Shown here piece after piece: positions 1 to 64,000 of a stretch of DNA of 64,000 nucleotides. The notes below the pieces were generated by a model. That model was not told the origin of the DNA, did no database searches, and was given only the letters and a program-made list of their open reading frames with translations. Made by a program: the position numbers and the translations under genes. The stretch comes from Hydractinia symbiolongicarpus. Its lineage: Eukaryota; Cnidaria; Hydrozoa; Anthoathecata; Hydractiniidae. Numbering within the stretch: the first letter of the stretch is position 1; each line of letters begins with the position of its first letter. The stretch is taken from contig NC_079881.1 in assembly GCF_029227915.1 (NCBI RefSeq), positions 10,044,001-10,108,000 on the forward strand, read 5' to 3'.

Positions 1-31
1 GCGCACGTGATAACCGCTACACTACGGAATC
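1..31 (-). tRNA. tRNA-Val, 5' part only, cut by window start
   Basis: Only the acceptor 5' strand, the D-arm and part of the anticodon stem are inside the window, so the anticodon is not visible. Confidence 0.8.
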
Positions 32-122
32 CAATGAATTTTGGAACCGATGACGAAGGAAAGCAATACAAGGCTAAAATAGCTAGAGAAAAAAGCAAAA
101 ACATGTCGCTTGTTAGTTGCCA

Positions 123-195
123 GATTCCGTAGTGTAGTGGTTATCACTTGCGCTTAACACGCGCAAGGTCACCGGTTCGAGCCCAGGCGGGATAA
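123..195 (+). tRNA. tRNA-Val(AAC), unit 1
   Basis: Degenerate: acceptor 1-72 mismatch (GATA), T-stem mismatches (ACCGG and CCAGG). Confidence 0.6.
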
Positions 196-235
196 TTGAT
201 GTTCCCGCGAAGCGAACCTCGGAAGAGCCTCTGTA

Positions 236-307
236 GGTTCCATGGTGTGATGGTTAGCACTCAGGACTCTGAATCCTGCGATCAGAGTTCAAATCTCGGT
301 GGAACCT
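236..307 (+). tRNA. tRNA-Gln(CTG), unit 1
   Basis: T-stem mismatch (TCAGAG). Confidence 0.75.
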
Positions 308-439
308 GTGCCGTTATTTGTGCCTCGGAAGCACCTATTGGGCGTTTGGAAGCAACGGCACTTCAAATATTTTAGTCATTTGCAAGAAGACATTGTAATA
401 AACAACGTTCTTCTGAAATGCATCAGATTAGGGCACAGT

Positions 440-512
440 GCCTTGTTAGCGCAGTAGGCAGCGCGTCAGTCTCATGATCTGAAGGCCGTGAGTTCGATCC
501 TCACACAGGGCA
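440..512 (+). tRNA. tRNA-Met(CAT), unit 1
   Basis: A37G next to the anticodon; a one-base insertion precedes the gene. Confidence 0.85.
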
Positions 513-576
513 AGGCTTTTAAAAGCCGCAGTGAATCAAAAGTTTGACGCCTATTACAGAACTAGCAACTCAACAA

Positions 577-649
577 TGATTCCGCCCGGGCTCGAACCGG
601 GGACCTTGCGCGTGTGAAGCGCACGTGATAACCGCTACACTACGGAATC
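577..649 (-). tRNA. tRNA-Val(CAC), unit 1
   Basis: Consensus form of the - strand Val. The 73-nt gene folds as a cloverleaf: acceptor GATTCCG/CGGAATC with discriminator A73, anticodon stem TGCGC/GCGCA, loop TTCACAC with anticodon CAC, T-arm CCCGG-TTCGAGC-CCGGG. It decodes GTG valine codons. It differs from the + strand Val mainly at position 34 and by a C in the D-arm (GTAGCGG against GTAGTGG). It converges on Met and diverges from the next Val(+). No CCA and no intron are encoded. An A4 tract on the + strand 15 bases past the 3' end gives it a Pol III terminator. Confidence 0.93.
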
Positions 650-740
650 CAATGAATTTTGGAACCTATGACGAAGGAAAGTAATACAAGGCTAAAATAG
701 CTAGAGGTAAAAGCAAAAACATGTCGCTTTTTAGTTGCCA

Positions 741-813
741 GATTCCGTAGTGTAGTGGTTATCACGTGCGCTTAACACGCGCAAGGTCCCCGGTTCGAGC
801 CCGGGCGGAATCA
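741..813 (+). tRNA. tRNA-Val(AAC), unit 2
   Basis: Consensus form of the + strand Val. Seventy-three nt; acceptor GATTCCG/CGGAATC, A73; D-arm with GTGTAGTGGTTATCAC (A box); anticodon stem TGCGC/GCGCA, loop TTAACAC with anticodon AAC (A34 expected to be edited to inosine, reading GTT/GTC/GTA); T-arm CCCGG-TTCGAGC-CCGGG (B box GGTTCGAGCCC). No intron, no encoded CCA. Only T3 follows within the 40 bp to Gln, so read-through into Gln is plausible. Val identity is supported by A35, C36 and A73. Confidence 0.94.
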
Positions 814-853
814 TTGATGTTTCCGCGATGCGAACTTTGGAAGAGCCTCTGTA

Positions 854-925
854 GGTTCCATGGTGTAATGGTTAGCACTCAGGACTCTGAATCCTGCGAT
901 CCTAGTTCAAGTCTCGGTGGAACCT
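854..925 (+). tRNA. tRNA-Gln(CTG), unit 2
   Basis: T-stem mismatch (CCTAG). Confidence 0.82.
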
Positions 926-979
926 GTGCCGTTAGTTGTGCCTCGGAAGCACCTATTGGGCGTTTGGAAGCAACGGCAC
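926..979 (+). other. Inverted repeat directly 3' of tRNA-Gln (example, unit 2)
   Basis: GTGCCGTT at 926-933 pairs with AACGGCAC at 972-979, and a nested GTGC/GCAC hairpin with loop CTCGGAA lies inside. The arm begins at the base after the Gln discriminator, and the T4 tract follows 8 bases after the second arm. It could be a processing or termination structure in the Gln trailer, or a relic of a lost tRNA (the outer stem is as long as an acceptor stem). Several copies break the outer stem (units 9, 11, 12, 27, 28, 30, 36), so function is uncertain. Confidence 0.4.
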
Positions 980-987
980 TTCAAATA

Positions 988-991
988 TTTT
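988..991 (+). terminator. T4 tract downstream of tRNA-Gln (example, unit 2)
   Basis: This is the first run of four T on the + strand after Val(+) and Gln in most units, 62 bases past the Gln 3' end, in the context AATATTTTAG. T4 is the minimal Pol III terminator in animals. It lies at V+247 in standard units. Confidence 0.55.
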
Positions 992-1056
992 AGTCATTTG
1001 CAAGAAGACATTGTAATAACAACGCTCTTCTGAAATGCATCGGACTAGGGCACAGT

Positions 1057-1129
1057 GCCTTGTTACTGCAGTAGGCAGCGTCTCAGTCTCATGATCTGAA
1101 GGCCGTGAGTTCGATCCTCACACAGGGCA
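1057..1129 (+). tRNA. tRNA-Met(CAT), unit 2
   Basis: D-stem disrupted (CTGC), GCGTCTCAG in the D/anticodon region, A37G; probably impaired. Confidence 0.6.
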
Positions 1130-1130
1130 A

Positions 1131-1144
1131 GGCTTTTAAAAGCC
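1131..1144. terminator. Palindrome GGCTTTTAAAAGCC, two-way T4 tract (example, unit 2)
   Basis: A perfect 14-bp palindrome starts two bases after the Met 3' end and gives TTTT on both strands. It would terminate Met on the + strand and could also stop leftward Val(-) read-through, insulating the convergent pair. It is conserved in most units. Units 75, 79, 84, 88 and 93 read GGCCTTTAAAAGCC (T3 on +), and units 7, 18 and 20 read GGCTTTTTAAAGCC. Confidence 0.6.
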
Positions 1145-1174
1145 GCAGTGAATCAAATGTTTGACGCCTATTAC

Positions 1175-1178
1175 AAAA
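1175..1178 (-). terminator. T4 tract (- strand) downstream of Val(-) (example, unit 2)
   Basis: AAAA in ACAAAACTAG reads TTTT on the - strand and lies 15 bases past the Val(-) 3' end. It is conserved in nearly all units. Confidence 0.55.
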
Positions 1179-1193
1179 CTAGCAACTCAACAA

Positions 1194-1266
1194 TGATTCC
1201 GCCCGTGCTCGAACCGGGGACCCTGGGCGTGTGAAGCGCACGTGATAACCGCTACACTACGAAATT
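1194..1266 (-). tRNA. tRNA-Val(CAC), unit 2
   Basis: Mismatches in acceptor, anticodon stem and T-stem; probably impaired. Confidence 0.6.
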
Positions 1267-46257: not shown

Positions 46258-46297
46258 TTGATGTTTCCGCGAAGCGAACCTCGGAAGAGCCTCTGTA

Positions 46298-46801: not shown

Positions 46802-46874
46802 GATTCCGTAGTGTAGTGATTATCACGTGCGCTTAACACGCCCAAGGTCCCCGGTTCGAGCCCGGGCGGAATCA
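46802..46874 (+). tRNA. tRNA-Val(AAC), unit 77
   Basis: As unit 72. Confidence 0.7.
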
Positions 46875-46914
46875 TTAATGTTTCCGCGAAGCGAACCTCG
46901 GAAGAGCCTCTGTA

Positions 46915-46986
46915 GGTTCCATGGTGTAATGGTTAGCACTCAGGACTCTGAATCCTGCGATCCGAGTTCAAGTCTCGGTGGAACCT
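46915..46986 (+). tRNA. tRNA-Gln(CTG), unit 77
   Basis: Consensus copy. Confidence 0.92.
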
Positions 46987-47117
46987 GTGCCGTTAGTTGT
47001 GCCTCGGAAGCACCTATTGGGCGTTTGGAAGCAACGGCACGTCAAATATTTTAGTCATTTGCAAGAAGACATTGTAATAACAACGTTCTTCTAAAATGCA
47101 TCGGATTAGGGCGCAGT

Positions 47118-47190
47118 GCCTTGTTAGCGCAGTAGGCAGTGCGTCAGTCTCATAATCTGAAGGTCGTGAGTTCGATCCTCACACAGGGCA
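47118..47190 (+). tRNA. tRNA-Met(CAT), unit 77
   Basis: D-stem wobble (GTGC). Confidence 0.87.
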
Positions 47191-47254
47191 AGGCTTTTAA
47201 AAGCCGCAGTGAATCAAATGTTTGACGCCTATTACGAAACTAGCAACTCAACAA

Positions 47255-47327
47255 TGATTCCGCCCGGGCTCGAACCGGGGACCTTGCGCGTGTGAAGCGC
47301 ACGTGATAACCGCTACACTACGAAATC
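47255..47327 (-). tRNA. tRNA-Val(CAC), unit 77
   Basis: Acceptor wobble. Confidence 0.87.
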
Positions 47328-47418
47328 CAATGAATTTTGGAACCGATGACGAAGGAAAGCAATACAAGGCTAAAACAGCAAGAGAAAAAAGCAAAAACAT
47401 GTCGCTTGTTAGATGCCA

Positions 47419-47490
47419 GATTCCGTAGTGTAGTTGTTATCACGTGCGCTTACACGCACAAGGTCCCCGGTTCGAGCCCGGGCGGAATCA
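47419..47490 (+). tRNA. tRNA-Val, shortened anticodon loop, unit 78
   Basis: Duplicate of the unit 74 deletion. Confidence 0.55.
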
Positions 47491-47530
47491 TTGATGTTTC
47501 CGCGAAGCGAACCTCGGAAGAACCTCTGTA

Positions 47531-47602
47531 GGTTCCATGGTGTAATGGTTAGCAATCAGGACCCTGAATGCTGCGATCCGAGTTCAAGTCTCGGTGGAAC
47601 CT
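47531..47602 (+). tRNA. tRNA-Gln(CTG), unit 78
   Basis: U33C as in unit 74. Confidence 0.62.
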
Positions 47603-47733
47603 GTGCCGTTAGTTGTGCCTCGAAAGCACCTATTGGGCGTTTGGAAGCAACGGCACTTGAAATATTTTAGTCATTTGCAAGAAGACATTGTAATAACAAC
47701 GTTCTTCTCAAATGCATCGGATTAGGGCACAGT

Positions 47734-47806
47734 GCCTTGTTAGCGCAGTAGGCAGCGCGTCAGTCTCATAATCTGAAGGTCGTGAGTTCGATCCTCACAT
47801 AGGGCA
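47734..47806 (+). tRNA. tRNA-Met(CAT), unit 78
   Basis: Acceptor wobble (ATAGGGC). Confidence 0.87.
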
Positions 47807-47870
47807 AGGCTTTTAAAAGCCGCAGTGAATCAAATGTTTAACGCCTATTACAAAACTAGCAACTCAACAA

Positions 47871-47943
47871 TGATTCCGCCCGGGCTCGAACCGGGGACCT
47901 TGCGCGTGTGAAGCGCACGTGATAATCGCTACACTACGGAATC
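47871..47943 (-). tRNA. tRNA-Val(CAC), unit 78
   Basis: One D-loop change. Confidence 0.88.
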
Positions 47944-48034
47944 CAATGAATTTTGGAACCTATGACGAAGAAAAGCAATACAAGGCTAAAATAGCTAGAG
48001 AAAAAACCAAAAACATGTCGCTTGTTAGTTGCCA

Positions 48035-48107
48035 GATTCCGTAGTGTAGTGGTTAGCACGTGCGCTTAACACGCGCAAGGTCCCCGGTTCGAGCCCGGGC
48101 GGAATCA
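48035..48107 (+). tRNA. tRNA-Val(AAC), unit 79
   Basis: D-loop GGTTAGCAC. Confidence 0.89.
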
Positions 48108-48147
48108 TTGATATTTCCGCGAAGCGAACCTCGGAAGAGCCTCTGTA

Positions 48148-48219
48148 GGTTCCATGGTGTAATGGTTAGCACTCAGGACTCTGAATCCTGCGATCCGAGT
48201 TCAAGTCTCGGTGGAACCT
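48148..48219 (+). tRNA. tRNA-Gln(CTG), unit 79
   Basis: Consensus copy. Confidence 0.92.
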
Positions 48220-48350
48220 GTGCCGTTAGTTGTGCCTCGGAAGCACCTATTGGGCGTTTGGAAGCAACGGCACTTCAAATATTTTAGTCATTTGCAAGAA
48301 GACATTGTAATAACAACGTTCTTTTGAAATGCATCGGATTAGGGCACAGT

Positions 48351-48423
48351 GCCTTGTTAGCGCAGTAGGCAGCGCGTCAGTCTCATAATCTGAAGGTCGT
48401 GAGTTCGATCCTCACACAGGGCA
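48351..48423 (+). tRNA. tRNA-Met(CAT), unit 79
   Basis: Consensus copy; T3 downstream. Confidence 0.9.
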
Positions 48424-48487
48424 AGGCCTTTAAAAGCCGCAGTGAATTAATTGTTTGGCGCCTATTACAAAACTAGCAACTCAACAA

Positions 48488-48560
48488 TTATTCCGCCCGG
48501 GCTCGAACCGGGGACCTTGCGCGTGTGAAGCGCACGTGATAACCGCTACACTACGGAATC
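48488..48560 (-). tRNA. tRNA-Val(CAC), unit 79
   Basis: C72A acceptor mismatch. Confidence 0.78.
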
Positions 48561-48651
48561 CAATGAATATTTGAACCTATGACGAAGGAAAGAAATACAA
48601 GGCTAAAGTAGCTAGAGAAAAAAGCAAAAACATGTCGCTTGTTAGTTGCCA

Positions 48652-48724
48652 GATTACGTAGTGTAGTGGTTATCACGTGCCCTTTACACGCGCAAGGTCC
48701 CTGGTTCGAGCCCGGGCGGAATCA
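48652..48724 (+). tRNA. tRNA-Val(TAC), unit 80
   Basis: As unit 76. Confidence 0.68.
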
Positions 48725-48764
48725 TTGATGTTTCCGCGAAGCGAACCTCGGAAGAGCCTCTGTA

Positions 48765-48836
48765 GGTTCCATGGTGTAATGGTTAGCACTCAGGACTCTG
48801 AATCCTGCGATCCGAGTTCAAGTCTCGGTGGAACCT
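48765..48836 (+). tRNA. tRNA-Gln(CTG), unit 80
   Basis: Consensus copy. Confidence 0.92.
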
Positions 48837-48967
48837 GTGCCGTTAGTTGTGCCTCGGAAGCACCTATTGGGCGTTTGGAAGCAACGGCACTTCAAATATT
48901 TTAGTCATTTGCAAGAAGACATTGTAATAACAACGTTCTTCTGAAATGCATCGGATTAGGGCACAGT

Positions 48968-49040
48968 GCCTTGTTAGCGCAGTAGGCAGCGCGTCAGTCT
49001 CATAATCTGAAGGTCGTGAGTTCGATCCTCACACAGGGCA
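48968..49040 (+). tRNA. tRNA-Met(CAT), unit 80
   Basis: Consensus copy. Confidence 0.92.
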
Positions 49041-49104
49041 AGGCTTTTAAAAGCCGCAGTGAATCAAATGTTTGACGCCTATTACAAAACTAGCAACTCA
49101 ACAA

Positions 49105-49177
49105 TGATTCCGCCCGGGCTCGAACCGGGGACCTTGCACGTGTGAAGCGCACGTGATAACCGCTACACTACGGAATC
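49105..49177 (-). tRNA. tRNA-Val(CAC), unit 80
   Basis: Stem wobble (GTGCA). Confidence 0.88.
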
Positions 49178-49268
49178 CAATGAATATTTGAACCTATGAC
49201 GAAGGAAAGCAATACAAAGCTAAAATAGCTAGAGAAAAAAGCAAAAACATGTCGCTTGTTAGTTGCCA

Positions 49269-49341
49269 GATTCCGTAGTGTAGTGATTATCACGTGCGCT
49301 TAACACGCCCAAGGTCCCCGGTTCGAGCCCGGGCGGAATCA
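49269..49341 (+). tRNA. tRNA-Val(AAC), unit 81
   Basis: As unit 72. Confidence 0.7.
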
Positions 49342-49381
49342 TTAATGTTTCCGCGAAGCGAACCTCGGAAGAGCCTCTGTA

Positions 49382-49453
49382 GGTTCCATGGTGTAATGGT
49401 TAGCACTCAGGACTCTGAATCCTGCGATCCGAGTTCAAGTCTCGGTGGAACCT
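49382..49453 (+). tRNA. tRNA-Gln(CTG), unit 81
   Basis: Consensus copy. Confidence 0.92.
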
Positions 49454-49584
49454 GTGCCGTTAGTTGTGCCTCGGAAGCACCTATTGGGCGTTTGGAAGCA
49501 ACGGCACGTCAAATATTTTAGTCATTTGCAAGAAGACATTGTAATAACAACGTTCTTTTGAAATGCATCGGATTAGGGCACAGT

Positions 49585-49657
49585 GCCTTGTTAGCGCAGT
49601 AGGCAGCGCGTCAGTCTCATAATCTGAAGGTCGTGAGTTCGATCCTCACACAGGGCA
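49585..49657 (+). tRNA. tRNA-Met(CAT), unit 81
   Basis: Consensus copy. Confidence 0.92.
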
Positions 49658-49721
49658 AGGCTTTTAAAAGCCGCAGTGAATCAATTGTTTGGCGCCTATT
49701 ACAAAACTAGCAACTCAACAA

Positions 49722-49794
49722 TGATTCCGCCTGGGCTCGAACCGGGGACCTTGCGCGTGTGAAGCGCACGTGATAACCGCTACACTACGGAATC
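49722..49794 (-). tRNA. tRNA-Val(CAC), unit 81
   Basis: T-stem change (CCAGG). Confidence 0.86.
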
Positions 49795-49885
49795 CAATGA
49801 ATATTTGAACCTATGACGAAGGAAAGCAATACAAGGCTAAAATAGCTAGAGAAAAAAGCAAAAACATGTCGCTTGTTAGTTGCCA

Positions 49886-49958
49886 GATTCCGTAGTGTAT
49901 TGGTTACCACGTGCGCTTAACACGCGCAAGGTCCCCGGTTCGAGCCCGGGCGGAATCA
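49886..49958 (+). tRNA. tRNA-Val(AAC), unit 82
   Basis: D-arm as in unit 73. Confidence 0.78.
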
Positions 49959-49998
49959 TTGATGTTTCCGCGAAGCGAACCTCGGAAGAGCCTCTGTA

Positions 49999-50070
49999 GG
50001 TTCCATGGTGTAATGGTTAGCACTCAGGACTCTGAATCCTGCGATCCGAGTTCAAGTCTCGGTGGAACCT
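49999..50070 (+). tRNA. tRNA-Gln(CTG), unit 82
   Basis: Consensus copy. Confidence 0.92.
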
Positions 50071-50201
50071 GTGCCGTTAGTTGTGCCTCGAAAGCACCTA
50101 TTGGGCGTTTGGAAGCAACGGCACCTGAAATATTTTAGTCATTTGCAAGAAGACATTGTAATAACAACGTTCTTCTCAAATGCATCGGATTAGGGCACAG
50201 T

Positions 50202-50274
50202 GCCTTGTTAGCGCAGTAGGCAGCGCGTCAGTCTCATAATCTGAAGGTCGTGAGTTCGATCCTCACATAGGGCA
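50202..50274 (+). tRNA. tRNA-Met(CAT), unit 82
   Basis: Acceptor wobble. Confidence 0.87.
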
Positions 50275-50338
50275 AGGCTTTTAAAAGCCGCAGTGAATCA
50301 AATGTTTAACGCCTATTACAAAACTAGCAACTCAACAA

Positions 50339-50411
50339 TGATTCCGCCCGGGCTCGAACCGGGGACCTTGCGCGTGTGAAGCGCACGTGATAATCGCTAC
50401 ACTACGGAATC
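50339..50411 (-). tRNA. tRNA-Val(CAC), unit 82
   Basis: One D-loop change. Confidence 0.88.
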
Positions 50412-50502
50412 CAATGAATTTTGGAACCTATGACGAAGAAAAGCAATACAAGGCTAAAATAGCTAGAGAAAAAACCAAAAACATGTCGCTTGTTAGTTGC
50501 CA

Positions 50503-50575
50503 GATTCCGTAGTGTAGTGGTTAGCACGTGCGCTTAACACGCGCAAGGTCCCCGGTTCGAGCCCGGGCGGAATCA
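50503..50575 (+). tRNA. tRNA-Val(AAC), unit 83
   Basis: D-loop GGTTAGCAC. Confidence 0.89.
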
Positions 50576-50615
50576 TTGATATTTCCGCGAAGCGAACCTC
50601 GGAACAGCCTCTGTA

Positions 50616-50687
50616 GGTTCCATGGTGTAATGGTTAGCACTCAGGACTCTGAATCCTGCGATCCGAGTTCAAGTCTCGGTGGAACCT
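50616..50687 (+). tRNA. tRNA-Gln(CTG), unit 83
   Basis: Consensus copy. Confidence 0.92.
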
Positions 50688-50818
50688 GTGCCGTTAGTTG
50701 TGCCTCGGAAGCACCTATTGGGCGTTTGGAAGCAACGGCACTTCAAATATTTTAGTCATTTGCAAGAAGACATTGTAATAACAACGTTCTTCTGAAATGC
50801 ATCGGATTAGGGCACAGT

Positions 50819-50891
50819 GCCTTGTTAGCGCAGTAGGCAGCGCGTCAGTCTCATAATCTGAAGGTCGTGAGTTCGATCCTCACATAGGGCA
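50819..50891 (+). tRNA. tRNA-Met(CAT), unit 83
   Basis: Acceptor wobble. Confidence 0.87.
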
Positions 50892-50955
50892 AGGCTTTTA
50901 AAAGCCGCAGTGAATCAAATGTTTAACGCCTATTACAAAACTAGCAACTCAACAA

Positions 50956-51028
50956 TGATTCCGCCCGGGCTCGAACCGGGGACCTTGCGCGTGTGAAGCG
51001 CACGTGATAATCGCTACACTACGGAATC
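50956..51028 (-). tRNA. tRNA-Val(CAC), unit 83
   Basis: One D-loop change. Confidence 0.88.
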
Positions 51029-51119
51029 CAATGAATTTTGGAACCTATGACGAAGAAAAGCAATACAAGGCTAAAATAGCTAGAGAAAAAACCAAAAACA
51101 TGTCGCTTGTTAGTTGCCA

Positions 51120-51192
51120 GATTCCGTAGTGTAGTGGTTAGCACGTGCGCTTAACACGCGCAAGGTCCCCGGTTCGAGCCCGGGCGGAATCA
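51120..51192 (+). tRNA. tRNA-Val(AAC), unit 84
   Basis: D-loop GGTTAGCAC. Confidence 0.89.
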
Positions 51193-51232
51193 TTGATATT
51201 TCCGCGAAGCGAACCTCGGAAGAGCCTCTGTA

Positions 51233-51304
51233 GGTTCCATGGTGTAATGGTTAGCACTCAGGACTCTGAATCCTGCGATCCGAGTTCAAGTCTCGGTGGA
51301 ACCT
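51233..51304 (+). tRNA. tRNA-Gln(CTG), unit 84
   Basis: Consensus copy. Confidence 0.92.
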
Positions 51305-51435
51305 GTGCCGTTAGTTGTGCCTCGGAAGCACCTATTGGGCGTTTGGAAGCAACGGCACTTCAAATATTTTAGTCATTTGCAAGAAGACATTGTAATAACA
51401 ACGTTCTTTTGACATGCATCGGATTAGGGCACAGT

Positions 51436-51508
51436 GCCTTGTTAGCGCAGTAGGCAGCGCGTCAGTCTCATAATCTGAAGGTCGTGAGTTCGATCCTCAC
51501 ACAGGGCA
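51436..51508 (+). tRNA. tRNA-Met(CAT), unit 84
   Basis: Consensus copy; T3 downstream. Confidence 0.9.
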
Positions 51509-51572
51509 AGGCCTTTAAAAGCCGCAGTGAATTAATTGTTTGGCGCCTATTACAAAACTAGCAACTCAACAA

Positions 51573-51645
51573 TTATTCCGCCCGGGCTCGAACCGGGGAC
51601 CTTGCGCGTGTGAAGCGCACGTGATAACCGCTACACTACGGAATC
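51573..51645 (-). tRNA. tRNA-Val(CAC), unit 84
   Basis: C72A acceptor mismatch. Confidence 0.78.
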
Positions 51646-51736
51646 CAATGAATATTTGAACCTATGACGAAGGAAAGAAATACAAGGCTAAAGTAGCTAG
51701 AGAAAAAAGCAAAAACATGTCGCTTGTTAGTTGCCA

Positions 51737-51809
51737 GATTACGTAGTGTAGTGGTTATCACGTGCCCTTTACACGCGCAAGGTCCCTGGTTCGAGCCCGG
51801 GCGGAATCA
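51737..51809 (+). tRNA. tRNA-Val(TAC), unit 85
   Basis: As unit 76. Confidence 0.68.
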
Positions 51810-51849
51810 TTGATGTTTCCGCGAAGCGAACCTCGGAAGAGCCTCTGTA

Positions 51850-51921
51850 GGTTCCATGGTGTAATGGTTAGCACTCAGGACTCTGAATCCTGCGATCCGA
51901 GTTCAAGTCTCGGTGGAACCT
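51850..51921 (+). tRNA. tRNA-Gln(CTG), unit 85
   Basis: Consensus copy. Confidence 0.92.
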
Positions 51922-52052
51922 GTGCCGTTAGTTGTGCCTCGGAAGCACCTATTGGGCGTTTGGAAGCAACGGCACTTCAAATATTTTAGTCATTTGCAAG
52001 AAGACATTGTAATAACAACGTTCTTCTGAAATGCATCGGATTAGGGCACAGT

Positions 52053-52125
52053 GCCTTGTTAGCGCAGTAGGCAGCGCGTCAGTCTCATAATCTGAAGGTC
52101 GTGAGTTCGATCCTCACACAGGGCA
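52053..52125 (+). tRNA. tRNA-Met(CAT), unit 85
   Basis: Consensus copy. Confidence 0.92.
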
Positions 52126-52189
52126 AGGCTTTTAAAAGCCGCAGTGAATCAAATGTTTGACGCCTATTACAAAACTAGCAACTCAACAA

Positions 52190-52262
52190 TGATTCCGCCC
52201 GGGCTCGAACCGGGGACCTTGCACGTGTGAAGCGCACGTGATAACCGCTACACTACGGAATC
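52190..52262 (-). tRNA. tRNA-Val(CAC), unit 85
   Basis: Stem wobble (GTGCA). Confidence 0.88.
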
Positions 52263-52353
52263 CAATGAATATTTGAACCTATGACGAAGGAAAGCAATAC
52301 AAAGCTAAAATAGCTAGAGAAAAAAGCAAAAACATGTCGCTTGTTAGTTGCCA

Positions 52354-52426
52354 GATTCCGTAGTGTAGTGATTATCACGTGCGCTTAACACGCCCAAGGT
52401 CCCCGGTTCGAGCCCGGGCGGAATCA
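52354..52426 (+). tRNA. tRNA-Val(AAC), unit 86
   Basis: As unit 72. Confidence 0.7.
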
Positions 52427-52466
52427 TTAATGTTTCCGCGAAGCGAACCTCGGAAGAGCCTCTGTA

Positions 52467-52538
52467 GGTTCCATGGTGTAATGGTTAGCACTCAGGACTC
52501 TGAATCCTGCGATCCGAGTTCAAGTCTCGGTGGAACCT
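52467..52538 (+). tRNA. tRNA-Gln(CTG), unit 86
   Basis: Consensus copy. Confidence 0.92.
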
Positions 52539-52669
52539 GTGCCGTTAGTTGTGCCTCGGAAGCACCTATTGGGCGTTTGGAAGCAACGGCACGTCAAATA
52601 TTTTAGTCATTTGCAAGAAGACATTGTAATAACAACGTTCTTCTAAAATGCATCGGATTAGGGCGCAGT

Positions 52670-52742
52670 GCCTTGTTAGCGCAGTAGGCAGTGCGTCAGT
52701 CTCATAATCTGAAGGTCGTGAGTTCGATCCTCACACAGGGCA
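52670..52742 (+). tRNA. tRNA-Met(CAT), unit 86
   Basis: D-stem wobble (GTGC). Confidence 0.87.
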
Positions 52743-52806
52743 AGGCTTTTAAAAGCCGCAGTGAATCAAATGTTTGACGCCTATTACGAAACTAGCAACT
52801 CAACAA

Positions 52807-52879
52807 TGATTCCGCCCGGGCTCGAACCGGGGACCTTGCGCGTGTGAAGCGCACGTGATAACCGCTACACTACGAAATC
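52807..52879 (-). tRNA. tRNA-Val(CAC), unit 86
   Basis: Acceptor wobble. Confidence 0.87.
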
Positions 52880-52970
52880 CAATGAATTTTGGAACCGATG
52901 ACGAAGGAAAGCAATACAAGGCTAAAACAGCAAGAGAAAAAAGCAAAAACATGTCGCTTGTTAGATGCCA

Positions 52971-53042
52971 GATTCCGTAGTGTAGTTGTTATCACGTGCG
53001 CTTACACGCACAAGGTCCCCGGTTCGAGCCCGGGCGGAATCA
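52971..53042 (+). tRNA. tRNA-Val, shortened anticodon loop, unit 87
   Basis: Duplicate of the unit 74 deletion. Confidence 0.55.
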
Positions 53043-53082
53043 TTGATGTTTCCGCGAAGCGAACCTCGGAAGAACCTCTGTA

Positions 53083-53154
53083 GGTTCCATGGTGTAATGG
53101 TTAGCAATCAGGACCCTGAATGCTGCGATCCGAGTTCAAGTCTCGGTGGAACCT
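53083..53154 (+). tRNA. tRNA-Gln(CTG), unit 87
   Basis: U33C as in unit 74. Confidence 0.62.
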
Positions 53155-53285
53155 GTGCCGTTAGTTGTGCCTCGAAAGCACCTATTGGGCGTTTGGAAGC
53201 AACGGCACTTGAAATATTTTAGTCATTTGCAAGAAGACATTGTAATAACAACGTTCTTCTCAAATGCATCGGATTAGGGCACAGT

Positions 53286-53358
53286 GCCTTGTTAGCGCAG
53301 TAGGCAGCGCGTCAGTCTCATAATCTGAAGGTCGTGAGTTCGATCCTCACATAGGGCA
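53286..53358 (+). tRNA. tRNA-Met(CAT), unit 87
   Basis: Acceptor wobble. Confidence 0.87.
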
Positions 53359-53422
53359 AGGCTTTTAAAAGCCGCAGTGAATCAAATGTTTAACGCCTAT
53401 TACAAAACTAGCAACTCAACAA

Positions 53423-53495
53423 TGATTCCGCCCGGGCTCGAACCGGGGACCTTGCGCGTGTGAAGCGCACGTGATAATCGCTACACTACGGAATC
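53423..53495 (-). tRNA. tRNA-Val(CAC), unit 87
   Basis: One D-loop change. Confidence 0.88.
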
Positions 53496-53586
53496 CAATG
53501 AATTTTGGAACCTATGACGAAGAAAAGCAATACAAGGCTAAAATAGCTAGAGAAAAAACCAAAAACATGTCGCTTGTTAGTTGCCA

Positions 53587-53659
53587 GATTCCGTAGTGTA
53601 GTGGTTAGCACGTGCGCTTAACACGCGCAAGGTCCCCGGTTCGAGCCCGGGCGGAATCA
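53587..53659 (+). tRNA. tRNA-Val(AAC), unit 88
   Basis: D-loop GGTTAGCAC. Confidence 0.89.
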
Positions 53660-53699
53660 TTGATATTTCCGCGAAGCGAACCTCGGAAGAGCCTCTGTA

Positions 53700-53771
53700 G
53701 GTTCCATGGTGTAATGGTTAGCACTCAGGACTCTGAATCCTGCGATCCGAGTTCAAGTCTCGGTGGAACCT
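53700..53771 (+). tRNA. tRNA-Gln(CTG), unit 88
   Basis: Consensus copy. Confidence 0.92.
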
Positions 53772-53902
53772 GTGCCGTTAGTTGTGCCTCGGAAGCACCT
53801 ATTGGGCGTTTGGAAGCAACGGCACTTCAAATATTTTAGTCATTTGCAAGAAGACATTGTAATAACAACGTTCTTTTGAAATGCATCGGATTAGGGCACA
53901 GT

Positions 53903-53975
53903 GCCTTGTTAGCGCAGTAGGCAGCGCGTCAGTCTCATAATCTGAAGGTCGTGAGTTCGATCCTCACACAGGGCA
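53903..53975 (+). tRNA. tRNA-Met(CAT), unit 88
   Basis: Consensus copy; T3 downstream. Confidence 0.9.
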
Positions 53976-54039
53976 AGGCCTTTAAAAGCCGCAGTGAATT
54001 AATTGTTTGGCGCCTATTACAAAACTAGCAACTCAACAA

Positions 54040-54112
54040 TTATTCCGCCCGGGCTCGAACCGGGGACCTTGCGCGTGTGAAGCGCACGTGATAACCGCTA
54101 CACTACGGAATC
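54040..54112 (-). tRNA. tRNA-Val(CAC), unit 88
   Basis: C72A acceptor mismatch. Confidence 0.78.
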
Positions 54113-54203
54113 CAATGAATATTTGAACCTATGACGAAGGAAAGAAATACAAGGCTAAAGTAGCTAGAGAAAAAAGCAAAAACATGTCGCTTGTTAGTTG
54201 CCA

Positions 54204-54276
54204 GATTACGTAGTGTAGTGGTTATCACGTGCCCTTTACACGCGCAAGGTCCCTGGTTCGAGCCCGGGCGGAATCA
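54204..54276 (+). tRNA. tRNA-Val(TAC), unit 89
   Basis: As unit 76. Confidence 0.68.
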
Positions 54277-54316
54277 TTGATGTTTCCGCGAAGCGAACCT
54301 CGGAAGAGCCTCTGTA

Positions 54317-54388
54317 GGTTCCATGGTGTAATGGTTAGCACTCAGGACTCTGAATCCTGCGATCCGAGTTCAAGTCTCGGTGGAACCT
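54317..54388 (+). tRNA. tRNA-Gln(CTG), unit 89
   Basis: Consensus copy. Confidence 0.92.
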
Positions 54389-54519
54389 GTGCCGTTAGTT
54401 GTGCCTCGGAAGCACCTATTGGGCGTTTGGAAGCAACGGCACTTCAAATATTTTAGTCATTTGCAAGAAGACATTGTAATAACAACGTTCTTCTGAAATG
54501 CATCGGATTAGGGCACAGT

Positions 54520-54592
54520 GCCTTGTTAGCGCAGTAGGCAGCGCGTCAGTCTCATAATCTGAAGGTCGTGAGTTCGATCCTCACACAGGGCA
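54520..54592 (+). tRNA. tRNA-Met(CAT), unit 89
   Basis: Consensus copy. Confidence 0.92.
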
Positions 54593-54656
54593 AGGCTTTT
54601 AAAAGCCGCAGTGAATCAAATGTTTGACGCCTATTACAAAACTAGCAACTCAACAA

Positions 54657-54729
54657 TGATTCCGCCCGGGCTCGAACCGGGGACCTTGCACGTGTGAAGC
54701 GCACGTGATAACCGCTACACTACGGAATC
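54657..54729 (-). tRNA. tRNA-Val(CAC), unit 89
   Basis: Stem wobble (GTGCA). Confidence 0.88.
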
Positions 54730-54820
54730 CAATGAATATTTGAACCTATGACGAAGGAAAGCAATACAAAGCTAAAATAGCTAGAGAAAAAAGCAAAAAC
54801 ATGTCGCTTGTTAGTTGCCA

Positions 54821-54893
54821 GATTCCGTAGTGTAGTGATTATCACGTGCGCTTAACACGCCCAAGGTCCCCGGTTCGAGCCCGGGCGGAATCA
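54821..54893 (+). tRNA. tRNA-Val(AAC), unit 90
   Basis: As unit 72. Confidence 0.7.
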
Positions 54894-54933
54894 TTAATGT
54901 TTCCGCGAAGCGAACCTCGGAAGAGCCTCTGTA

Positions 54934-55005
54934 GGTTCCATGGTGTAATGGTTAGCACTCAGGACTCTGAATCCTGCGATCCGAGTTCAAGTCTCGGTGG
55001 AACCT
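54934..55005 (+). tRNA. tRNA-Gln(CTG), unit 90
   Basis: Consensus copy. Confidence 0.92.
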
Positions 55006-55136
55006 GTGCCGTTAGTTGTGCCTCGGAAGCACCTATTGGGCGTTTGGAAGCAACGGCACGTCAAATATTTTAGTCATTTGCAAGAAGACATTGTAATAAC
55101 AACGTTCTTTTGAAATGCATCGGATTAGGGCACAGT

Positions 55137-55209
55137 GCCTTGTTAGCGCAGTAGGCAGCGCGTCAGTCTCATAATCTGAAGGTCGTGAGTTCGATCCTCA
55201 CACAGGGCA
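55137..55209 (+). tRNA. tRNA-Met(CAT), unit 90
   Basis: Consensus copy. Confidence 0.92.
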
Positions 55210-55273
55210 AGGCTTTTAAAAGCCGCAGTGAATCAATTGTTTGGCGCCTATTACAAAACTAGCAACTCAACAA

Positions 55274-55346
55274 TGATTCCGCCTGGGCTCGAACCGGGGA
55301 CCTTGCGCGTGTGAAGCGCACGTGATAACCGCTACACTACGGAATC
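55274..55346 (-). tRNA. tRNA-Val(CAC), unit 90
   Basis: T-stem change (CCAGG). Confidence 0.86.
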
Positions 55347-55437
55347 CAATGAATATTTGAACCTATGACGAAGGAAAGCAATACAAGGCTAAAATAGCTA
55401 GAGAAAAAAGCAAAAACATGTCGCTTGTTAGTTGCCA

Positions 55438-55510
55438 GATTCCGTAGTGTATTGGTTACCACGTGCGCTTAACACGCGCAAGGTCCCCGGTTCGAGCCCG
55501 GGCGGAATCA
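55438..55510 (+). tRNA. tRNA-Val(AAC), unit 91
   Basis: D-arm as in unit 73. Confidence 0.78.
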
Positions 55511-55550
55511 TTGATGTTTCCGCGAAGCGAACCTCGGAAGAGCCTCTGTA

Positions 55551-55622
55551 GGTTCCATGGTGTAATGGTTAGCACTCAGGACTCTGAATCCTGCGATCCG
55601 AGTTCAAGTCTCGGTGGAACCT
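55551..55622 (+). tRNA. tRNA-Gln(CTG), unit 91
   Basis: Consensus copy. Confidence 0.92.
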
Positions 55623-55753
55623 GTGCCGTTAGTTGTGCCTCGAAAGCACCTATTGGGCGTTTGGAAGCAACGGCACCTGAAATATTTTAGTCATTTGCAA
55701 GAAGACATTGTAATAACAACGTTCTTCTCAAATGCATCGGATTAGGGCACAGT

Positions 55754-55826
55754 GCCTTGTTAGCGCAGTAGGCAGCGCGTCAGTCTCATAATCTGAAGGT
55801 CGTGAGTTCGATCCTCACATAGGGCA
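55754..55826 (+). tRNA. tRNA-Met(CAT), unit 91
   Basis: Acceptor wobble. Confidence 0.87.
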
Positions 55827-55890
55827 AGGCTTTTAAAAGCCGCAGTGAATCAAATGTTTAACGCCTATTACAAAACTAGCAACTCAACAA

Positions 55891-55963
55891 TGATTCCGCC
55901 CGGGCTCGAACCGGGGACCTTGCGCGTGTGAAGCGCACGTGATAATCGCTACACTACGGAATC
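55891..55963 (-). tRNA. tRNA-Val(CAC), unit 91
   Basis: One D-loop change. Confidence 0.88.
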
Positions 55964-56054
55964 CAATGAATTTTGGAACCTATGACGAAGAAAAGCAATA
56001 CAAGGCTAAAATAGCTAGAGAAAAAACCAAAAACATGTCGCTTGTTAGTTGCCA

Positions 56055-56127
56055 GATTCCGTAGTGTAGTGGTTAGCACGTGCGCTTAACACGCGCAAGG
56101 TCCCCGGTTCGAGCCCGGGCGGAATCA
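56055..56127 (+). tRNA. tRNA-Val(AAC), unit 92
   Basis: D-loop GGTTAGCAC. Confidence 0.89.
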
Positions 56128-56167
56128 TTGATATTTCCGCGAAGCGAACCTCGGAACAGCCTCTGTA

Positions 56168-56239
56168 GGTTCCATGGTGTAATGGTTAGCACTCAGGACT
56201 CTGAATCCTGCGATCCGAGTTCAAGTCTCGGTGGAACCT
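56168..56239 (+). tRNA. tRNA-Gln(CTG), unit 92
   Basis: Consensus copy. Confidence 0.92.
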
Positions 56240-56370
56240 GTGCCGTTAGTTGTGCCTCGGAAGCACCTATTGGGCGTTTGGAAGCAACGGCACTTCAAAT
56301 ATTTTAGTCATTTGCAAGAAGACATTGTAATAACAACGTTCTTCTGAAATGCATCGGATTAGGGCACAGT

Positions 56371-56443
56371 GCCTTGTTAGCGCAGTAGGCAGCGCGTCAG
56401 TCTCATAATCTGAAGGTCGTGAGTTCGATCCTCACACAGGGCA
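56371..56443 (+). tRNA. tRNA-Met(CAT), unit 92
   Basis: Consensus copy. Confidence 0.92.
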
Positions 56444-56507
56444 AGGCTTTTAAAAGCCGCAGTGAATCAAATGTTTGACGCCTATTACAAAACTAGCAAC
56501 TCAACAA

Positions 56508-56580
56508 TGATTCCGCCTGGGCTCGAACCGGGGACCTTGCACGTGTGAAGCGCACGTGATAACCGCTATACTACGGAATC
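56508..56580 (-). tRNA. tRNA-Val(CAC), unit 92
   Basis: T-stem change and stem wobble. Confidence 0.82.
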
Positions 56581-56671
56581 CAATGAATTTTGGAACCTAT
56601 GACGAAGGAAAGCAATACAAGGCTAAAATAGCTAAAGAAAAAAGCAAAAACATGTCGCTTGTTAGTTGCCA

Positions 56672-56744
56672 GATTCCGTAGTGTAGTGGTTATCACGTGC
56701 TCTTAACACGCGCAAGGTCCCCGGTTCGAGCCCGGGCGGAATCA
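56672..56744 (+). tRNA. tRNA-Val(AAC), unit 93
   Basis: Anticodon-stem mismatch (TGCTC). Confidence 0.78.
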
Positions 56745-56784
56745 TTAATGTTTCCGCGAAGCGAACCTCGGAAGAGCCTCTGTA

Positions 56785-56856
56785 GGTTCCATGGTGTAAT
56801 GGTTAGCACTCAGGACTCTGAATCCTGCGATCCGAGTTCAAGTCTCGGTGGAACCT
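56785..56856 (+). tRNA. tRNA-Gln(CTG), unit 93
   Basis: Consensus copy. Confidence 0.92.
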
Positions 56857-56987
56857 GTGCCGTTAGTTGTGCCTCGGAAGCACCTATTGGGCGTATGGAA
56901 GCAACGGCACTTGAAATATTTTAGTCATTTGCAAGAAGACATTGTAATAACAACGTTCTTTTGAAATGCATCGGATTAGGGCACAGT

Positions 56988-57060
56988 GCCTTGTTAGCGC
57001 AGTAGGCAGCGCGTCAGTCTCATAATCTGAAGGTCGTGAGTTCGATCCTCACACAGGGCA
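56988..57060 (+). tRNA. tRNA-Met(CAT), unit 93
   Basis: Consensus copy; T3 downstream. Confidence 0.9.
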
Positions 57061-57124
57061 AGGCCTTTAAAAGCCGCAGTGAATTAATTGTTTGGCGCCT
57101 ATTACAAAACTAGCAACTCAACAA

Positions 57125-57197
57125 TTATTCCGCCCGGGCTCGAACCGGGGACCTTGCGCGTGTGAAGCGCACGTGATAACCGCTACACTACGGAATC
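57125..57197 (-). tRNA. tRNA-Val(CAC), unit 93
   Basis: C72A acceptor mismatch. Confidence 0.78.
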
Positions 57198-57288
57198 CAA
57201 TGAATATTTGAACCTATGACGAAGGAAAGAAATACAAGGCTAAAGTAGCTAGAGAAAAAAGCAAAAACATGTCGCTTGTTAGTTGCCA

Positions 57289-57361
57289 GATTACGTAGTG
57301 TAGTGGTTATCACGTGCGCTTTACACGCGCAAGGTCCCTGGTTCGAGCCCGGGCGGAATCA
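57289..57361 (+). tRNA. tRNA-Val(TAC), unit 94
   Basis: Acceptor GATTACG mismatch; anticodon stem intact. Confidence 0.78.
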
Positions 57362-57401
57362 TTGATGTTTCCGCGAAGCGAACCTCGGAAGAGCCTCTGT
57401 A

Positions 57402-57473
57402 GGTTCCATGGTGTAATGGTTAGCACTCAGGACTCTGAATCCTGCGATCCGAGTTCAAGTCTCGGTGGAACCT
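57402..57473 (+). tRNA. tRNA-Gln(CTG), unit 94
   Basis: Consensus copy. Confidence 0.92.
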
Positions 57474-57604
57474 GTGCCGTTAGTTGTGCCTCGGAAGCAC
57501 CTATTGGGCGTTTGGAAGCAACGGCACTTCAAATATTTTAGTCATTTGCAAGAAGACATTGTAATGACAACGTTCTTCTGAAATGCATCGGATTAGGGCA
57601 CAGT

Positions 57605-57677
57605 GCCTTGTTAGCGCAGTAGGCAGCGCGTCAGTCTCATAATCTGAAGGTCGTGAGTTCGATCCTCACACAGGGCA
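57605..57677 (+). tRNA. tRNA-Met(CAT), unit 94
   Basis: Consensus copy. Confidence 0.92.
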
Positions 57678-57741
57678 AGGCTTTTAAAAGCCGCAGTGAA
57701 TCAAATGTTTGACGCCTATTACAAAACTAGCAACTCAACAA

Positions 57742-57814
57742 TGATTCCGCCCGGGCTCGAACCGGGGACCTTGCACGTGTGAAGCGCACGTGATAACCGC
57801 TACACTACGGAATC
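57742..57814 (-). tRNA. tRNA-Val(CAC), unit 94
   Basis: Stem wobble (GTGCA). Confidence 0.88.
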
Positions 57815-57905
57815 CAATGAATTTTGGAACCTATGACGAAGGAAAGCAATACAAGGCTAAAATAGCTAGAGAAAAAAGCAAAAACATGTCCTTTGTTAGT
57901 TGCCA

Positions 57906-62335: not shown

Positions 62336-62407
62336 GGTTCCATGGTGTAATGGTTAGCACTCAGGACTCTGAATCCTGCGATCCGAGTTCAAGTCTCGGT
62401 GGAACCT
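62336..62407 (+). tRNA. tRNA-Gln(CTG), unit 102
   Basis: Consensus copy. Confidence 0.92.
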
Positions 62408-62538
62408 GTGCCGTTAGTTGTGCCTCGGAAGCACCTATTGGGCGTTTGGAAGCAACGGCACTTGAAATATTTTAGTCATTTGCAAAAAGACATTGTAATA
62501 ACAACGTTCTTCTGAAATGCATCGGATTAGGGCACAGT

Positions 62539-62611
62539 GCCTTGTTAGCGCAGTAGGCAGCGCGTCAGTCTCATAATCTGAAGGTCGTGAGTGCGATCCT
62601 CAAACAGGGCA
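62539..62611 (+). tRNA. tRNA-Met(CAT), unit 102
   Basis: T55G in the B box and CTCAAAC T-stem/acceptor change. Confidence 0.65.
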
Positions 62612-62675
62612 AGGCTTTTAAAAGCCGCAGTGAATCAAATGTTTGACGCCTATTACAAAACTAGCAACTCAACAA

Positions 62676-62748
62676 TGATTCCGCCCGGGCTCGAACCGGG
62701 GACCTTGCGCGTGTGAAGCGCACGTGATAACCGCTACACTACAGAATC
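62676..62748 (-). tRNA. tRNA-Val(CAC), unit 102
   Basis: Acceptor wobble (GATTCTG). Confidence 0.87.
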
Positions 62749-62839
62749 CAATGAATTTTGGAACCGATGACGAAGGAAAGCAATACAAGGCTAAAACAGC
62801 TAGAGAAAAAAGCAAAAACATGTCGCTTGTTAGTTGCCA

Positions 62840-62912
62840 GATTCCGTAGTGTAGTGGTTATAACGTGCGCCTAACACGCGCAAGGTCCCCGGTTCGAGCC
62901 CGGGCGGAATCA
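62840..62912 (+). tRNA. tRNA-Val(AAC), unit 103
   Basis: T32C; D-loop TTATAAC. Confidence 0.86.
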
Positions 62913-62952
62913 TTGATGTTTCCGCGAAGCGAACCTCGGAAGAGCCTCTGTA

Positions 62953-63024
62953 GGTTCGATGGTGTAATGGTTAGCAATCAGGACTCTGAATCTTGCGATC
63001 CGAGTTCAAGTCTCGGTGGAACCT
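62953..63024 (+). tRNA. tRNA-Gln(CTG), unit 103
   Basis: Acceptor mismatch (GGTTCGA); D-stem GCAAT. Confidence 0.7.
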
Positions 63025-63155
63025 GTGCCGTTAGTTGTGCCTCGAAAGCACCTATTGGGCGTTTGGAAGCAACGGCACTTGAAATATTTTAGTCATTTGC
63101 AAGAAGACATTGTAATAACAACGTTCTTCTGAAATGCATCGGATTAGGGCACAGT

Positions 63156-63228
63156 GCCTTGTTAGCGCAGTAGGCAGCGCGTCAGTCTCATAATCTGAAG
63201 GTCGTGAGTGCGATCCTCACACAGGGCA
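63156..63228 (+). tRNA. tRNA-Met(CAT), unit 103
   Basis: T55G in the B box. Confidence 0.72.
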
Positions 63229-63292
63229 AGGCTTTTAAAAGCCGCAGTGAATCAAATGTTTGACGCCTATTACAAAACTAGCAACTCAACAA

Positions 63293-63365
63293 TGATTCCG
63301 CCCGGGCTCGAACCGGGGACCTTGCGCGTGTGAAGCGCACGTCATAACCGCTACACTACGGAATC
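63293..63365 (-). tRNA. tRNA-Val(CAC), unit 103
   Basis: One D-stem change. Confidence 0.85.
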
Positions 63366-63456
63366 CAATGAATTTTGGAACCTATGACGAAGGAAAGCAA
63401 TACAAGGCTAAAATAGCTAGAGAAAAAAGCAAAAACATGTCGGTTGTTAGTTGCCA

Positions 63457-63529
63457 GATTCCGTAGTGTAGTGGTTATCACGTGCGCTTAACACGCGCAA
63501 GGTCCCCGGTTCGAGCCCGGGCGGAATCA
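63457..63529 (+). tRNA. tRNA-Val(AAC), unit 104
   Basis: Consensus copy, followed by T4. Confidence 0.92.
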
Positions 63530-63535
63530 TTGATG

Positions 63536-63539
63536 TTTT
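63536..63539 (+). terminator. T4 tract between Val(+) and Gln, unit 104
   Basis: GATGTTTTCG replaces GATGTTTCCG, giving a minimal T4 terminator. Confidence 0.45.
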
Positions 63540-63569
63540 CGCGAAGCGAACCTCGGAAGAGCCTCTGTA

Positions 63570-63641
63570 GGTTCCATGGTGTAATGGTTAGCACTCAGGA
63601 CTCTGAATCCTGCCATCCGAGTTCAAGTCTCGGTGGAACCT
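63570..63641 (+). tRNA. tRNA-Gln(CTG), unit 104
   Basis: One variable-loop change (GCCATCC). Confidence 0.89.
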
Positions 63642-63772
63642 GTGCCGTTAGTTGTGCCTCGGAAGCACCTATTGGGCGTTTGGAAGCAACGGCACTTGAA
63701 ATATTTTAGTCATTTGCAAGAAGACATTGTAATAACAACGTTCTTCTGAAATGCATCGGATTAGGGCACAGT

Positions 63773-63845
63773 GCCTTGTTAGCGCAGTAAGCAGCGCGTC
63801 AGTCCCATAATCTGAAGGTCGTGAGTTCGATCCTCACACAGGGCA
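63773..63845 (+). tRNA. tRNA-Met(CAT), unit 104
   Basis: U33 replaced by C (CCCATAA); D-loop GG changed to AG. Confidence 0.65.
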
Positions 63846-63909
63846 AGGCTTTTAAAAGCCGCAGTGAATCAAATGTTTGACGCCTATTACAAAACTAGCA
63901 ACTCATTAA

Positions 63910-63982
63910 TGATTCCGCCCGGGCTCGAACCGGGGACCTTGCGCGTGTGAAGCGCACGTGATAACCGCTACACTACGGAATC
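63910..63982 (-). tRNA. tRNA-Val(CAC), unit 104
   Basis: Consensus copy, complete just before the window end. Confidence 0.92.
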
Positions 63983-64000
63983 CAATGAATTTTGGAACCG

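Follow-up and report, generated by a model that had tools for sequence, protein, structure and literature searches.

A chromosomal tandem array of four-gene tRNA units, probably a gene reservoir for RNA polymerase III, in the hydrozoan Hydractinia symbiolongicarpus

The stretch analysed here, 64,000 nucleotides of the cnidarian Hydractinia symbiolongicarpus (C7:10044001-10108000, where C7 is a contig of 33.3 Mb in a genome of 480.9 Mb and 76 contigs; hereafter the window), consists from position 1 to position 64000 of one tandem array of a 617-bp unit carrying four transfer RNA (tRNA) genes in the order Val(+), Gln-CTG(+), Met-CAT(+) and Val-CAC(-). Both window ends are inside the array, which runs on for approximately 366 kb leftward and 277 kb rightward. 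With about 1,140 four-gene units over about 707 kb, this chromosomal tandem tRNA array is comparable in organisation to ribosomal DNA, and it probably provides RNA polymerase III (Pol III) with a reservoir of genes. The intact fraction of the copies would be transcribed by Pol III by way of the A and B boxes inside the genes. The tRNA output would depend on how large the array is and not on any single copy, so that selection would act on the whole array and not on individual units.

The edges of the array were located with small probes. The left edge is at C7:9,678,063, at unit position 218 in the Gln-Met spacer, and the right edge is near C7:10,385,045, inside a tRNA-Met gene, giving a length of approximately 706,983 bp, which corresponds to about 1,140 units and to 0.15% of the genome. 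The unit was matched in 14 of the 14 probes placed between the edges and in none of the 17 placed outside. Approximately 296 kb (42% of the array) was read contiguously: 9.700-9.900 Mb (the left block), 1.9 kb at the left edge, the window, 10.178-10.198 Mb and 10.208-10.218 Mb. At four genes per unit, extrapolation gives about 4,500 tRNA-like genes in the whole array. ARAGORN found 1,137 tRNAs in the 200-kb left block, an underestimate because the block as read contains 123 runs of N (120 of them of 62 bp), mostly over Met genes, with 114 of the 123 flanked by Met gene ends. The Met gene was partly N in 136 of 339 units read outside the window, which biases any Met count there.

Within the window, a search with a spacer anchor returned 103 anchors and 102 spacings, 87 of which were exactly 617 bp; eleven others measured 615, 616 or 618 bp, three 695 bp and one 792 bp. 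There are 101 complete units plus truncated ends. ARAGORN detected 411 tRNAs, and Rfam run with fast filters gave 295 matches over the gathering score, fewer than ARAGORN; the 150 of these that were listed were all tRNA. A first-pass annotation of the window had described a 617-bp unit filling it with both ends inside the array, and anchor spacings and ARAGORN agree with this description. The order that it gave for the four genes is correct, and its estimates of about 415 tRNA loci and 104 repeats are close to the counts above. Tandem Repeats Finder (TRF), a check which that annotation had proposed, reported nothing in the window except duplicated parts of units, and no short tandem repeats in the unit spacers. 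TRF and the alignment of units together revealed three units with an internal duplication of 78 bp, one unit with a duplication of 174 bp, and small indels, with no other irregularities seen. The former, on the plus strand, comprises the 3' half of Val(+) plus spacer and is located at 33466-33623, 34778-34935 and 36090-36247; the latter, also on the plus strand, includes a Val(+) gene (39177-39521). The 78-bp duplication is common to every second unit (u53, u55 and u57 in the numbering of window units; 33466-36247), which is the mark of a two-unit block duplication.

For the comparison of units, 97 of 102 were kept in the window, the five with insertions or truncation being dropped, whereas for the array-wide set 30 spacings outside 605-630 bp were dropped, followed by 4 of 436 units with more than 25 differences, leaving 432. 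The 97 window units and the 432 array-wide units aligned over 617 bp as head-to-tail copies with near-identical spacers.

The anatomy of the unit can be followed in an example at 741-1357, in which tRNA genes make up 291 of the 617 bp. Its genes are those for tRNA-Val with anticodon AAC (741-813, plus strand), tRNA-Gln-CTG (854-925, plus strand, 40 bp past Val), tRNA-Met-CAT (1057-1129, plus strand) and tRNA-Val-CAC (1194-1266, minus strand); the Met gene is presumably of the elongator type, judging by resemblance. The 131-bp Gln-Met spacer (926-1056) contains a predicted hairpin followed by TTTT at consensus unit position 248. Canonical pairing was found in all the stems used of every consensus tRNA, and the consensus unit carries box-A/B-like motifs and T4 runs. 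A TTTT is present 4 bases past Met and 15 bases past Val(-), and none separates Val(+) from Gln. Transcription that began at the first base of Val(+) and stopped at the first TTTT would yield an RNA of 251 nt with both genes in it, and Val(+) and Gln may therefore share a single Pol III transcript. The consensus Val(+) and Val(-) genes are identical save for positions 16 and 34, and each Val(-) faces the next Val(+) head-to-head across 91 bp, so that the two make up an inverted repeat with 73-bp arms. One such pair (1805-2053) matches the Rfam family MIR8562, a microRNA precursor model, over the whole length of the model. This match (48.3 bits vs. a gathering score of 211) was set aside, as by its position it corresponds to the two facing Val genes taken for a hairpin.

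An array of this regularity raises the question of whether an assembler could have inflated a few copies into many, a concern already voiced in the first-pass annotation. Some blocks are indeed exact or nearly exact copies of others. However, 70 of the 97 window units and 254 of the 432 array-wide units mutually differ by at least six bases, and the array, whose two edges were located, is embedded in a 33.3-Mb contig; this largely answers the concern. For Hydractinia tRNA arrays, an artefact has also been argued against in PMC11067881 on the basis of a second assembly and of Nematostella. An assembly artefact is thus highly improbable.

The array grows and is reshuffled by unequal exchange between its units. 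In the window 90 of the 102 units were distinct, and for many of them the closest relative was a near-consensus unit; copies are about 2% off the consensus, with a median of 12 substitutions in window units and of 13 in the left block. Among 416 distinct alleles, 179 were present in more than one of 70 deduplicated window units, pointing to older variants that have been shuffled among backgrounds. Clean two-parent hybrids accounted for 7 of the 97 window units, compared to 0 in each of 20 column shuffles, and for 17 of 291 units in the left block, compared to 0-3 in 10 shuffles. In the hybrid unit u40 (25419-26034, plus strand), the left part is that of u46 and the right part that of u34 (3 differences), and u39 is identical to u45 and u41 to u35. 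Similarly, u80 (50503-51119, plus strand) joins the left part of u89 to the right part of u71 (0 differences), with u79 identical to u88 and u81 to u72. The neighbours of u40 and u80 are thus identical to those of the two parents, the pattern required by a single unequal crossover. The hybrids u18 and u26 had near-identical neighbours (2-3 differences). All seven breakpoint intervals fell in unit positions 163-416, which at first suggested a recombination hotspot in the Gln-Met spacer, but rotating the start of the unit gave other positions too, and no hotspot is proposed.

The longest block duplications in the window had shifts of nine, six and four units; that with the nine-unit shift is recent, with 19 mismatches over 7,079 aligned bp, and its two overlapping copies occupy 45194-57822 on the plus strand (approximate limits, with small indels). 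Linkage disequilibrium dropped with distance within the unit (mean r2 from 0.059 to 0.017), and the pairs of sites with all four gametes climbed from 20% to 51%. Unit pairs with no more than two differences made up 2.8% of those at 2-6 kb, 0.24% of those at 50-100 kb and 0.00% of those beyond 200 kb. Regarding gene conversion between the inverted Val arms, none of the 432 units carried both diagnostic bases of the opposite arm in either direction.

The degree to which single copies are constrained was assessed by comparison of tRNA genes with spacers; the Met gene was left out of the array-wide tests since it is N-masked in many units outside the window. In the window, the tRNA/spacer ratio of substitutions per site was 1.087 (bootstrap 0.942-1.247; 70 deduplicated units). 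When expectations were drawn from spacer rates specific to base and to CpG, 171 stem-breaking changes were counted vs. 209.7 expected and 83 pair-keeping changes vs. 59.3, a hint of weak constraint that the array-wide count of stem-breaking changes, given below, fails to bear out. Array-wide, the tRNA/spacer ratio was 1.306 (1.209-1.401), with several common alleles in the tRNA genes; pair-keeping changes numbered 300 vs. 181.7 expected, and distinct stem-breaking alleles 155 vs. 151.3. Invariant sites were no commoner in tRNA genes (23/218) than in spacers (53/320). Exact matches to the consensus were found in 139 of 432 Val(+) genes (allowing A or T at position 34), 129 of 432 Gln genes and 39 of 432 Val(-) genes. 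CpG transitions had a mean of 1.72% and a median of 1.16%, vs. 1.49% and 0.69% for other C/G sites, and the observed/expected CpG ratio of the consensus was 1.13; in the window there were 2.80 variants per site at CpG vs. 1.68 elsewhere, a comparison that is not base-matched. There was thus no strong sign of decay through methylation. Inspection, with no statistic, for a strand asymmetry of mutations linked to transcription revealed no consistent pattern.

Several of the results weigh against an array kept as a reservoir and renewed by simple crossovers. The hybrids u23 and u92 were flanked by dissimilar neighbours left and right, and u28 by one such neighbour. Near-identity was less frequent between adjacent units (0.75%) than between units 2-10 apart, which nevertheless fits block duplications that span several units. 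Stem-breaking changes array-wide (254 deduplicated of the 432 units, without Met) numbered 522 vs. 512.2 expected from spacers, and the three terminator runs were unbroken in 412, 405 and 421 of the 432 units, vs. a mean of 94.2% for AT-only 4-mers of the spacers. In addition, none of 102 window units had all four tRNAs at the consensus, even when A or T was allowed at Val position 34. As neither stems nor terminators are clearly better conserved than spacers, single copies appear to be nearly free to drift, and these constraint results fit an inert satellite equally well.

Such an inert or selfish satellite would have arisen by runaway unequal exchange, with its copies mostly untranscribed passengers and with dispersed tRNA genes doing the work. 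Besides the near absence of constraint and of fully consensus units in the window, its turnover is typical of satellites, and to that extent the first-pass term "satellite-like" was apt for the mode of evolution, with unequal exchange, local homogenisation and nearly unconstrained copies. A tRNA array in Arabidopsis is also reported to be silent in most tissues (PMC12308677). On the other hand, the monomer is not devoid of genes, as the consensus still encodes four canonical tRNAs, and other isoacceptors are also found in a tandem cassette, described below. The weak CpG decay argues only a little against a satellite, because some animals methylate their DNA little. Moreover, at around 1,000 copies per-copy selection would be invisible even in an essential array, so that the constraint pattern is also expected under selection on total output and does not separate the reservoir from the satellite. 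Taken together, we consider the inert satellite rather unlikely.

A single base switches the first Val gene from Val-AAC to Val-TAC, and the TAC variant is regionally spread in blocks. Position 34 of Val(+) was A in 163 of the 432 units and T in 262. In the window TAC replaced AAC in 21 of 97 units, and in groups of up to 25 units the share of TAC was 20-52% at 9.70-9.75 Mb and 60-100% at 9.755-9.90 Mb.

The genome contains a second tRNA cassette, on another contig (C3), and hence several distinct array units. In a search of the genome with the Rfam tRNA model, which gave 49,105 first-look candidates, all of the 63 that were scored lay on C3, at 3.35, 4.45-4.48 and 8.38-8.96 Mb (8380323-8959829), many of them about 1,305 bp apart. 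A contiguous reading of 2.8 kb (C3:8404301-8407100) revealed two adjacent units of 1,326 and 1,305 bp with 18 mismatches between them. The unit comprises seven tRNA genes: Lys-TTT, Ala-AGC, Leu-CAA with a 32-nt intron, Tyr-GTA (minus strand) with a 21-nt intron, Met-CAT (minus strand), Ala-TGC, which ARAGORN misses in the second unit, and Asp-GTC. By its resemblance, we take this Met-CAT to be of the initiator type, and CAT is the only anticodon in common with the C7 cassette. A TAA microsatellite of variable length was also seen by eye in the C3 unit. The first-pass annotation had found it puzzling that amplification should be skewed to three isotypes; three isotypes are indeed what the C7 array holds, but the puzzle is weakened by a cassette with other isoacceptors, which makes tRNA amplification here not peculiar to those three, and by the description of tandem tRNA arrays as a genome-wide habit in Hydractinia (PMC11067881). 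The second cassette suggests that such arrays hold a large part of the tRNA complement of the genome. Going further, it is possible, and we propose it tentatively, that in this animal most of the tRNA complement is concentrated in a few arrays embedded in chromosomes, that each of these has isoacceptors of its own, and that the array is a ground for anticodon switching, where AAC/TAC blocks spread by local exchange among almost unconstrained copies.

Comparable arrays have been described before in Entamoeba (PMC2652664), zebrafish (PMC11417395) and Nematostella, the first two of which the first-pass annotation had named, and the closest are those of Hydractinia itself. Clusters contain 89% of tRNA genes and pseudogenes in Nematostella and 65% in zebrafish (PMC2888827). 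Tandem tRNA arrays for all 20 amino acids are reported for Hydractinia in PMC11067881, which describes such an organisation as unusual outside Entamoeba and its significance as unclear. The Hydractinia and Nematostella arrays of that report resemble the present one in being animal, evenly spaced tandem arrays with near-identical spacers and several arrays per genome, but are given as tens or even hundreds of copies, compared to about 1,140 units here. Entamoeba likewise has tandem units of up to five tRNA genes, with the complement split between array units (PMC2652664). According to the same source, the spacers of E. histolytica hold short tandem repeats, unlike those of the C7 unit, where TRF reports none; most copies are uniform within an isolate, whereas copies here are about 2% off the consensus; and the Entamoeba arrays represent more than 10% of the genome, vs. 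0.15% for the C7 array. The Arabidopsis SYY cluster is similar as a multi-tRNA unit expanded in tandem with intact and degenerate copies mixed, but it is from a plant, is far smaller (54 clustered Tyr genes) and has proven tissue-specific expression (PMC12308677). In our literature search, the C7 cassette, an array of such length, the AAC/TAC blocks and per-copy neutrality were not found described; the supplements of PMC11067881 were outside the search and may list the array. Pattern scans for the cassette and spacer in viral and prokaryotic contig collections gave no match, although the nature of such collections makes this absence say little.

In zebrafish, animal tRNA genes also lie in highly repetitive regions, mainly on chromosome 4, and are there tied to maternal isodecoders: those of the egg and early embryo are reported to come from the repetitive regions, whereas scattered genes supply the later ones (PMC11417395). 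An amphibian study mentions dual gene systems, oocyte and somatic, and 150,000 tRNA genes in a newt (PMC3565088). By analogy, the C7 array could be a stage-specific supply, for instance of tRNA for the oocyte or early embryo, and be shut off in somatic cells, which we regard as possible but doubtful.

A role in chromatin or nuclear structure (insulator, replication barrier or nuclear hub), independent of tRNA supply, also has parallels. Clusters of tRNA genes have been discussed as fork barriers (PMC2888827). The human variable number tandem repeat (VNTR) at 1q23.3, which shares with the present array tRNA genes in a variable tandem repeat, binds CTCF, but has a 7.3-kb unit in 9-43 units, with tRNA making up less than 6% of the unit, compared to 291 of 617 bp here (PMC4041453). 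In the C7 unit itself, the head-to-head Val pair constitutes a strong inverted repeat. In contrast, no specially conserved spacer element was found in a search limited to terminator runs and the count of invariant sites, and a purely structural role seems distinctly improbable.

Regarding the surroundings of the array, its G+C content was 48%, vs. 33% in 19.4 kb outside. The only non-unit stretch longer than 25 bp in the left block was a retrotransposon of 3,529 bp on the minus strand (C7:9809974-9813502), with an uninterrupted frame of 1,052 codons that matches reverse transcriptase and endonuclease families, inserted, as judged by eye, in a Gln-Met spacer. Approximately 4.2 kb to the left of the array there is an open frame of the PMP22/claudin type, with a single protein match at 92% identity, and a second reverse-transcriptase element (RVT_1) lies about 7-12 kb to the left of the array, within C7:9664001-9672000.

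The above results provide an assembled animal tRNA array of about 700 kb with both edges located, in which identified junction units, an anticodon variant that has spread regionally and the near absence of selection on single copies show from the sequence alone how the array lives. Automatic tRNA counts in genomes of this type would mostly count near-neutral repeats. If the tentative proposal of anticodon switching within few arrays is true, the balance of isoacceptors would be set by recombination within arrays and not by gain and loss of dispersed genes. The array also makes it testable whether array length sets the supply of tRNA in such animals.

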